The notes beneath the pieces were generated by a model that saw only the letters and a program-made list of their open reading frames with translations, had not been told where the DNA came from and searched no databases. A stretch of DNA of 64,000 bases from Bradyrhizobium rifense (lineage in GTDB: Bacteria; Pseudomonadota; Alphaproteobacteria; Rhizobiales; Xanthobacteraceae), in NCBI RefSeq assembly GCF_008123425.1, contig NZ_VSSS01000007.1:1-64000 (forward strand). The letters are read 5' to 3'. This document shows, piece by piece, positions 4,637 to 13,805 of this stretch. A program made the translations under genes and the position numbers. Every line of letters begins with the position of its first letter. Within the stretch, counting starts at the first letter, position 1.

Positions 4637-4933
4637 ATGGCAAAGATGACCAAGACCCAATTGATCGATGCAATTGCGGAAGGCACGCAGCTTGCGAAGA
4701 ACGACGTGAAGTCGGTCATCGAATACATGGCGACCGTCGGCTACAAGGAGCTCAACGAGTCCGGTGAGTTCGTCATTCCCGGTTTCGTGAAGATGTCGGT
4801 CGTCAACAAGCCTGCGACCGAAGCCCGCATGGGCGTCAATCCCTTCACCAAGGAGCCGATGCAGTTTGCTGCGAAGCCGGCGAGCAAGTCGGTCAAGGCC
4901 TCGCCGCTGAAGGTCGCCAAGGACTCGGTCTGA
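4637..4933 (+). CDS. HU/IHF-family DNA-binding protein
   Basis: A 98-aa nucleoid-associated protein of the bacterial histone-like family. It has the helical dimerisation N-terminus (Met-Thr-Lys-Thr-Gln-Leu-Ile-Asp-Ala-Ile-Ala-Glu), then the strand phrase Phe-Val-Ile-Pro-Gly-Phe-Val-Lys and the DNA-binding arm with Asn-Pro-Phe-Thr-Lys-Glu-Pro. The arm reads Gly-Val-Asn-Pro where the family normally has Gly-Arg-Asn-Pro, so a conserved basic residue is missing. The C-terminus is Lys/Ala/Ser-rich and slightly longer than that of canonical 90-aa HU. It is monocistronic, with a strong terminator 20 bases downstream. Confidence 0.92.
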   Translation: MAKMTKTQLIDAIAEGTQLAKNDVKSVIEYMATVGYKELNESGEFVIPGFVKMSVVNKPATEARMGVNPFTKEPMQFAAKPASKSVKASPLKVAKDSV

Positions 4934-4953
4934 TCCCAGTCGACAAAAAGGGG

Positions 4954-4984
4954 AAAACCCCGCCTGGGGGAAGCGGGGTTTTCT
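4954..4984 (+). terminator. Rho-independent terminator of the HU-like gene
   Basis: A perfect GC-rich stem AAAACCCCGC/GCGGGGTTTT with a 9-nt loop, ending in a T tract, 20 bases after the HU stop codon. The A/T-rich outer pairs could let it work in both directions. Confidence 0.9.
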
Positions 4985-5100
4985 GATGGGGGTGAAGCCT
5001 GGGGGAAGCTTCATTTATTAGACGCGCCAGCGCTGAAAAAGTTCATCGCGCAGAGACAAGATCGTGCGCGGCGATCCCCGCAAAATCATCGCCCGATCTC

Positions 5101-5132
5101 CAAAAAGAAAAACCCCGCGCTTGCGCACGGGG
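5101..5132 (-). terminator. orphan intrinsic terminator reading leftward
   Basis: On the minus strand the stem CCCCGTGC/GCGCGGGG closes a GCAA (GNRA) tetraloop and is followed by TTTTTCTTTTT. Read on the plus strand the same hairpin has a C-A mismatch and no T tract, so the direction is clear. No annotated minus-strand coding gene feeds into it. Confidence 0.85.
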
Positions 5133-5285
5133 CTCTCTTGCTGACGGCGTTGGGATTTCAGCGCCTGGCCGTCAGCGATCTGCCTAACTTAAGGTTGAAA
5201 ATCCAAAAAGCAACAGCGCCGCGGTGACGGAGTATGTTCGTCCATCGCGGCGCCGGCATGCGACTGGGCGCTGAAATCCCCAGCC
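5101..5285 (-). ncRNA. candidate structured small RNA, about 185 nt
   Basis: No protein gene lies on the minus strand between 5101 and the next minus-strand gene, yet a strong minus-strand terminator sits at 5101-5132. Upstream of it the sequence folds extensively. There is a 9-bp perfect stem (5140-5148 with 5168-5176), a hairpin with an 8-bp GC stem (about 5214-5253), and a long-range 14- to 15-bp complementarity between 5151-5165 and 5266-5280 that competes with the first stem. The 5' end is inferred from the folding and not from a clear promoter. The long-range closing helix gives a 6S-RNA-like outline, but I cannot confirm homology. Confidence 0.5.
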
Positions 5286-5403
5286 TCCATGGGTCCCCGG
5301 CGCGCCGAAAAGGTTCAACGCGACATCACAGGAAATTTCGCGCGAGGACTGGACTTGTTGTTCTCATTTTGTTCTAGTGAGTCACCCGCTTTGGAGGTGA
5401 CTC

Positions 5404-5556
5404 ATGACCGTCGAGAAACAGCGCGAAGTGATCCGGCTCTGGAACCAGCTCAGGAAGGTCGAGGGCCCGGCCGCAGAAGAACTCCGCATCCAGATCCTGG
5501 AATGCTTTTCGGAGAAGGGCAGCGCAGAGAAGGGCCATGCGAAGCGCGCGGCTTGA
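5404..5556 (+). CDS. small helical hypothetical protein, 50 aa
   Basis: A short gene with an excellent ribosome-binding site GGAGGTGA seven bases before the ATG. The product is highly charged and predicted to be helical (Glu-Lys-Gln-Arg-Glu-Val-Ile-Arg-Leu-Trp-Asn-Gln-Leu-Arg), with a single Cys at residue 33 and an Ala/Lys/Arg tail. It is cytoplasmic and the family is unknown. The strong translation signal is the main argument that it is real. Confidence 0.65.
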   Translation: MTVEKQREVIRLWNQLRKVEGPAAEELRIQILECFSEKGSAEKGHAKRAA

Positions 5557-13074: not shown

Positions 13075-13805
13075 ACGCTGATCAATCACTGACCGGAGGG
13101 CGCGTTCAAACGCGACGCCGAACCCCTCAGCGTTTGTTCTTTGATGGACGCGATCTCTGTGCGATTTTTGCTGGAGTTAAAACAGGTTATCCCGCGCAGA
13201 ATTACCAAAGCTTCATCGAACCTTTGGCCGTCACCACAGACATAACAGTGTTGGGGATTTCAGCGCCCAATGTCTAAACGGACGCCGCCAAGCGATGATA
13301 TTCCGCTTGCGCGGCGTTGCGCTTTTGAGGGCTCAGCCCGAGGCATACCAGCCGGCCGGAAACGGGATCAGCGGCCAGACCGGATAATTGTCGTTGGCAG
13401 CCCTCGTCGACCTCTCGTGGGGCGGCCTGGCAACGGGTATCGCGGGCGATGAAACCATCGCCAGATGCAAATGCGCAAATTGCAAATTCATGATCATCGA
13501 CCTGCAGTCAGTCGTTTGAAAAATTCAGCTTGAAATCAACCAGGCGCGCTTTCGGAAACGGCGCACTCATTCTCAAATCGCGCATGCATCTTAGAAAAGA
13601 TAGGCAGGCGTTTCAACCGGCAAGGCGGCGGTCTGTGGGCAAGTGTGGGCCAGGTAAGGTTGATCGGTTAGGTTAAGCACGAGCCGTCGTTGCGGCGGTT
13701 TTGAAGGCTGGTATCAAACCGGTCCCGGCACGCGACGATGCCGCATCTGCGGCTCACACGAGATCACATTCGTCGCGGCGTTTCGTTTCGCGCGAGTTGT
13801 CCGCC
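13075..13805. other. 731-base intergenic region with hairpin and short repeats
   Basis: No convincing gene. It contains a bulged hairpin around the repeated motif GGGGATTTCAGCGCCCA (annotated at 13238-13275) and a copy of CGGTTAGGTTAA at 13665-13676, also found at 6181-6192. A 60-codon frame starting at 13270 is Arg/Pro-rich and was not accepted. The AT content is higher than in flanking coding DNA. Confidence 0.5.
13238..13275 (+). repeat. hairpin bearing the 17-nt motif shared with the 5.1-5.3 kb RNA candidate
   Basis: Arms AGACA and TGTCT enclose a second perfect pair TTGGG/CCCAA, with an 8-nt bulge between them on the left and a 10-nt loop. The inner part, GGGGATTTCAGCGCCCA, is identical to the minus strand at 5281-5265, and it is complementary to the other arm at 5151-5165 with one extra G. 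Confidence 0.55.

Follow-up and report, generated by a model that had tools for sequence, protein, structure and literature searches.

Among described systems, the nearest experimentally demonstrated case that we found is CrfA of Caulobacter crescentus, an RNA that neutralizes the sibling small RNAs (sRNAs) SisA-D (PMC12559287). Like the RNA described here, CrfA is alphaproteobacterial and has a stem-loop complementary to a core shared by sibling sRNAs, but it has a gene of its own, and the sRNAs that it targets are of the alphaR8 family, with an unstructured UUUCCUCCCU core (PMC12559287). In the RNA of gene L of Bradyrhizobium rifense, by contrast, the putative antagonist hairpin and a copy of the sRNA that it matches are joined in one RNA, a hairpin loop holds the seed, and at the gathering score there is no match to any Rfam family. 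Membership of L or its sister gene S in the alphaR8/SisA-D group was rejected by reading, since the unpaired 10-mer UUUCCUCCCU (PMC12559287) is absent from both. A second comparison is with CJnc180/CJnc190 of Campylobacter jejuni, where an RNA antagonist likewise lies next to an sRNA and the precursor forms a duplex within itself (PMC8687705). There the antagonist, CJnc180, is an antisense RNA encoded in cis on the same DNA (PMC8687705), whereas that of L would be a 3′ hairpin on its own transcript, matching a distant sister gene. In the parts of these two reports consulted, neither the CrfA nor the CJnc180/190 antagonist is joined to a copy of the family that it targets (PMC12559287, PMC8687705).

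The preliminary description of this locus had likened L to 6S RNA, which it does recall in size and in a closing helix that can be drawn. Covariance searches with Rfam models did not bear this out: no 6S match was obtained at the gathering score across the window (the whole stretch of DNA analyzed, 64,000 nt) or at E ≤ 10 within 4930–5450, and the fold consists of four hairpins, not one with a central bubble. The best-scoring model at E ≤ 10 was instead BjrC68 (RF02353), a Bradyrhizobium sRNA, with a weak match over 5185–5101; identity with BjrC68 was rejected because the 26.3 bits fall below the gathering score of 39 and the real gene, scoring 99.1 bits and unlike L in sequence, lies elsewhere in the genome. 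No other BjrC RNA, of those in Rfam, reached the gathering score in the scan of the window, L had no Rfam 15 match at that score across the window, and S had no Rfam match at E ≤ 1. Genome G027 (9,105,828 bp), which we take to be that of strain USDA 110, carries L at 4867207–4867285 and S at 4873118–4873196. From B. japonicum USDA 110, the Bradyrhizobium sRNAs BjsR1-BjsR10, several of them in imperfect copies, and Br-REP1/2 have been described (PMC5082802). If G027 is indeed USDA 110, L and S are not BjsR genes, because their G027 positions differ from the listed start sites (PMC5082802). Similarity to L and S was at chance level in 11 stretches at the positions of BjsR1–7, and BjsR8, 9, and 10 were compared by position alone.

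Results

Architecture of the L locus

Gene L occupies about 185 nt of the minus strand, with its 5′ end near 5285 and its 3′ end near 5101, as delimited by its terminator, fold, and conservation and by an 85-bit match over 5205–5285 to R1, a covariance model of hairpins A and B (the A+B module) that we built on 36 L and S copies. It is preceded by a promoter-like motif (5290–5318) consisting of TTGAAC (5318–5313), a 17-bp spacer, and GACCCA (5295–5290), whose spacing is fixed in relatives. Hairpin A (5264–5283) carries the 14-nt seed GGGATTTCAGCGCC (5280–5267), with the core in its loop (5278–5269). Hairpin B (5214–5255) has a conserved loop, approximately AAYATAYTC, and is followed by GTTGCTTTTT (5214–5205), a possible first, weak terminator. 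The remainder, which we call unit 2, comprises a conserved single-stranded linker, TTCAACCTTAAGTT (5186–5199), hairpin C (5140–5176), and the intrinsic terminator (5101–5137). The loop of hairpin C holds the anti-seed GGCGCTGAAATCCC (5165–5152), which is the exact complement of the seed in hairpin A.

The preliminary description had proposed that the minus strand encodes a separate regulatory RNA of about 185 nt that ends at a terminator of its own; our analysis supports this and adds the promoter-like motif, which that description lacked. A terminator scan located the expected minus-strand terminator at 5137–5108, with 13 pairs, a GCAA (GNRA) loop, and a T tract running to 5101. The 9-bp stem described at 5140–5148/5168–5176 proved exact on reading, the GC-rich hairpin was recovered at about 5214–5255, and the long-range complementarity, put at 14 to 15 bp, comprises 14 bp (5152–5165 with 5267–5280), within one pair of the original estimate. 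We also agree that no plausible minus-strand coding gene feeds the terminator. The flanking genes, an HU-like gene (4637–4933) and a 50-aa ORF (5404–5556), both lie on the plus strand, and a minus-strand ORF in the ORF list (5577–5374), antisense to the 50-aa ORF, was judged not to be a gene. A coding role for L itself was rejected: the window does contain a minus-strand frame of some 34 codons, but an ATG lies near its start in 26 of 89 relatives, and an ATG frame of at least 25 codons starting at offsets 20–60 was found in 10 of the 89 L relatives.

Two features of the neighborhood deserve mention in their own right. At 4953–4983, 3′ of the HU-like gene and about 120 bp from the L terminator, lies a strong hairpin that has A and T tracts; the HU-like gene unit and L are convergent. 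On the other side, a GTTC-N7-GTTC box, GTTCTCATTTTGTTC, which we take to be of the alphaproteobacterial LexA type, lies on the plus strand at 5360–5374, upstream of the 50-aa ORF (beginning MTVEKQREVIRLWNQ). The box is present upstream of L at 78 of 79 type-1 loci and at none of 22 type-2 loci. Its likely role is therefore at the divergent 50-aa ORF, and control of L by LexA was rejected on that ground. The 50-aa ORF may possibly encode an SOS-controlled small protein.

Conserved structure, strand, and promoter-like spacing

BLAST matched the L element in 172 of 265 genomes of the genus, with the same genes around the locus in most stretches compared. We fetched 80 further loci and extracted full-length copies from 89 of 101, of which 57 were aligned after dereplication; the 12 that were not extracted had no recognizable start or end and include 9 of 13 loci with a mutated seed. 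The minus strand of L folds at −95.3 kcal/mol, compared to −67.3 ± 4.5 kcal/mol for 200 shuffled sequences, none of which reached it (z −6.2). The plus strand folds almost equally well (z −5.9, likewise beyond all shuffles), and strand is therefore not given by energy alone. Wobble pairs decide the matter: in stems A–C of the 57 relatives we counted 79 G-U against 6 A-C cells (with 1319 Watson–Crick, 17 other, and 4 gap cells), which indicates the minus strand.

Run without an input structure on the 57 relatives, RNAalifold returned four local hairpins, namely A (5283–5264), B (5255–5214), C (5176–5140), and the terminator, with 9 of 37 pairs changed on both sides. When the loop–loop pairs are added, the 47 pairs are 97.7% paired and contain 33 double-change cells, compared to 7.1 ± 2.4 in shuffled alignments (0 of 500 reaching the observed value), although these counts overstate the regularity of pairing in cis because 9 of the 13 seed-mutated type-1 loci are missing from the alignment. 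Compensatory changes, which the preliminary description had proposed to look for in an alignment of relatives, are present. For the A+B module alone, the 36 L and S copies contain 50 double-change cells against 15.4 ± 3.0 in shuffles. L thereby shows conserved secondary structure without a coding signal, as a bacterial sRNA should.

Upstream, a TTGAAC-like box was found in 85 of 94 regions (those of 111 loci with a recognizable G run); the distance from the start of the box to the G run is exactly 37 nt in 72 and 38 nt in 10 more, and a second hexamer, mostly GACNNA, follows 17 bp beyond the box. Promoters of the TTG-N(16–18)-TATA type are reported for B. japonicum (PMC4842269), and the TTGAAC-N17-GACNNA motif of L is unlike that type.

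The good folding of both strands, together with the several copies of the module per genome, could also suggest a DNA-level repeat, such as a REP- or MITE-like element or a protein site, instead of an RNA gene. We regard this as extremely improbable, given the asymmetry between G-U and A-C cells, the strand-specific terminator, the fixed promoter-like spacing, and the constancy of the gene neighborhood of L. The repeat Br-REP1 is absent from the window, and L and S resemble it only at chance level, which excludes them as Br-REP1 copies. We conclude that L is very probably a real, structured, and conserved noncoding RNA gene on the minus strand at about 5285–5101.

The sister gene S and the A+B family

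The 13-nt core of the seed recurs on the plus strand at 13255, and this match led us to gene S (13249–13328, plus strand). S contains the same A+B module (R1 match 81.6 bits) with the seed GGGATTTCAGCGCC at 13254–13267, lacks hairpin C, and has its own promoter-like motif at 13216–13244 (TCGAAC, a 17-bp spacer, and GACATA). A small minus-strand ORF (13325–13500) faces S and seems, by eye, to be conserved in 11 type-1 S loci; S could overlap the 3′ end of this opposite-strand ORF. The pattern GGGATTTCAGSGCC was matched in 193 of 257 genomes of the genus, with three matches of the reversed control in the same table. Among the matches listed, a common arrangement of three has the L seed, the L anti-seed some 115 bp from it, and S at a distance of 5–8 kb; the S–L distance is often in this range and reaches about 60 kb in some genomes.

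The A+B module extends beyond this pair. R1 matched 133 of the 391 genomes searched in the taxonomic family, spread over 9 of 47 genera (with a single match at E 0.001–0.009 in each of four), and 10 of 297 genomes of the order, all within that taxonomic family; both searches used stricter filters, by which weak matches are lost. Bradyrhizobium and Nitrobacter carry several copies of the module, which is also present in other genera of the taxonomic family; there are nine copies at E ≤ 0.05 in genome G018 and six, four of them weak, in the genome of the window. Plasmids and phages yielded no match, and the family was not found in the open literature searched. An anti-seed downstream (z ≤ −3) was detected in 6 of 56 copies tested, all in Bradyrhizobium, and in 0 of 20 copies from other genera; the 56 were selected from the known copies, for the most part away from the L locus, and include the two of the window. 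Among the copies examined, those with hairpin C and an anti-seed were all from Bradyrhizobium, and we infer that hairpin C was added to an older A+B module.

Three further observations concern individual members. Copies L287–L291 form a distinct and closely similar subgroup in five genomes, with hairpin B around GGCGCCACGCGACGAAGATATTCCGTCG. Copies L185, L281, and L285 lie, by eye, upstream of an apparent tRNA gene on the opposite strand. The element also occurs in a record named Frankia sp. RB7 (L464), which is probably a mislabeled Bradyrhizobium.

Pairing between seed and anti-seed

The preliminary description held that two mutually exclusive folds compete in this RNA. The complementarity is real and its pairing is possible in cis, but the consensus consists of local hairpins that leave both complementary segments largely in loops, so that competition between nested folds becomes one of two possibilities. 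We therefore recast the claim: the hairpin loops are complementary and can pair in the same molecule, from one copy to another, or with the RNA of the sister gene. Computed for a single strand, the nested long-range helix (−93.6 kcal/mol) is more stable than the local fold without loop–loop pairing (−84.4 kcal/mol), and thus either state is physically possible.

The duplex energy of loop A with its own loop C averages −25.8 kcal/mol, compared to −10.2 ± 3.0 with shuffled loop C. Type-2 seeds pair about equally with the type-1 anti-seed (−25.7) and with that of their own class (mean −25.5), making the energetic specificity one-sided. The computed co-fold of S with unit 2 reaches −89.5 kcal/mol, against −32.7 and −43.2 for the two apart. 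Cognate arms covary: the seed variants CAGCG, CAGGG, and UAAGG are each accompanied by matching anti-seeds, and one of the UAAGG-type copies has the exact complementary GCCCTTAAATCCC. The anti-seed accordingly shows conserved complementarity to an sRNA interaction site, as a sponge should, if the loop of S is, as we suppose, such a site. A search for mRNA targets found none; an exact 13-nt complement of the seed occurs at four other sites in the genome, three of them in or at open frames, without evident target logic.

Some of these data would suit a switch in cis, in which the A–C contact forms mainly within one molecule, as a kissing-loop pseudoknot or the long-range helix, and serves to fold or silence L; an active form of 80 nt would then arise by termination after hairpin B, and an inactive one of 185 nt by read-through. 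The greater stability of the nested fold, the covariation of the cognate arms, and the T-rich run after hairpin B all fit such a switch, as does the presence of both arms, exact, in 62 of 79 full type-1 loci, by which cis pairing is also possible. The consensus over 57 relatives, however, is hairpins A and C and not the long helix, and the behavior of the anti-seed in genomes that have lost the L seed (below) speaks against it as well. We consider a mainly intramolecular role unlikely.

Retention of the anti-seed where the L seed has decayed

In 17 genomes, identified among the BLAST matches listed (to about E 2e-15) as those starting after query position 48, the 5′ part of L including hairpin A is missing or decayed. 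In another 13 loci, which are all such cases among the 79 full type-1 loci fetched, the seed is mutated. Taking deleted and mutated seeds together, among the matches listed, the anti-seed remains exact in 28 of 30 genomes and S has an exact seed in 29 of 30. For the 17 deletions, again among the matches listed, S has both the exact seed and the promoter motif in every genome, and the anti-seed is exact in 15, the exceptions being G127 and G184; of the 13 mutated loci, 12 go with an exact S seed, whereas that of G034 carries a single mismatch. The classification of matches covers 30 of 33, with G216 assigned by eye and the anti-seeds of G218 and G240 read in their own stretches. An extra match in G218 resembles a distant copy without a promoter motif.

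Across the 79 full type-1 loci, both arms are exact in 62, the anti-seed alone in 13, the seed alone in 4 (L107, L116, L126, and L135), and neither in 0. In G131 and G263 the L seed has become GGG, the type-2 form, and mismatches the anti-seed, which S still matches. An earlier comparison of remnants found 14 of the 17 by a search word that contained the anti-seed, and its invariance in those 14 is therefore by construction; a comparison of all 14-mers of the window's unit 2 is free of that, and here the anti-seed is the most often kept, being present in 15 of 17 remnants (among the matches listed) against a median of 2. Retention of S says little by itself, S being common to most genomes. More telling is the anti-seed, which is preserved even as its own partner decays.

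Type-2 loci are less uniform. In G036, G001, and G038 a nearby partner and L both carry GGGATTTCAGGGCC (seed read as GATTTCAGGG). A separate S partner was not seen in 4 of 7 type-2 neighborhoods (G037, G020, G150, and G068, in stretches of 16–17 kb); further GGGATTTCAGGGCC sites occur elsewhere in these four genomes. Of these, one in G068 reads as an S-type copy and one in G150 as a second L-type copy; G020 has two CGC-type sites as well.

That unit 2 outlasts the A+B part, with its loop as the best-kept stretch, could also mean that the roles are reversed, hairpin C being the active, mRNA-binding regulator and the A loops of S and L its decoys. We find this improbable, as the A+B module is far more widespread than hairpin C, which with its anti-seed occurs in Bradyrhizobium alone among the copies examined. 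The conserved loop of hairpin B and the linker, neither with an obvious base-pairing partner, might instead point to protein binding or to an RNA dimer, in which the complementarity would serve architecture or oligomerization rather than antagonism. This would leave unexplained both the persistence of the anti-seed after the decay of its own partner and its match to a partner encoded elsewhere, and we think it very doubtful.

Discussion

Conserved structure, strand, promoter-like spacing, family membership, complementarity, compensatory changes, and the persistence of the anti-seed with only a trans partner can all be read from the sequences compared here. On that basis we propose that L probably combines an sRNA with a fused antagonist, or sponge, hairpin whose main target is its sibling S. 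Transcription, intracellular pairing, the identity of the silenced RNA, and any mRNA targets are what we infer from these features.

L and S belong to a multicopy small-RNA family in which, according to this model, the shared 80-nt A+B module would be the regulator and the hairpin-A loop, GAUUUCAGCG, the site (seed) that interacts with other RNAs. To this module the Bradyrhizobium L adds unit 2 (linker, hairpin C, and terminator), whose hairpin C loop, complementary to the seed, may capture the seed loop of S, and that of L itself where the L seed is intact. Capture would proceed by loop–loop pairing that may extend to the 14-bp duplex. L transcripts ending after hairpin B would supply a second copy of the regulator, while those reading through to 5101 would carry the antagonist. 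The pattern of conservation points mainly to pairing of L with the sister RNA.

More tentatively, and with somewhat less than an even chance in our estimation, the locus may be a self-antagonizing sRNA gene, in which a sponge hairpin arose on a copy of the very family that it blocks, was tuned to the sister locus, and became a stand-alone sponge after the sRNA module decayed. sRNA sponges are known, but to our knowledge the origin of a dedicated sponge is largely open. If the proposal is correct, it would make visible an evolutionary route from a duplicated sRNA to a dedicated antagonist and, because regulator, fused regulator and antagonist, and antagonist alone occur within one genus, the steps along that route would be comparable and testable.
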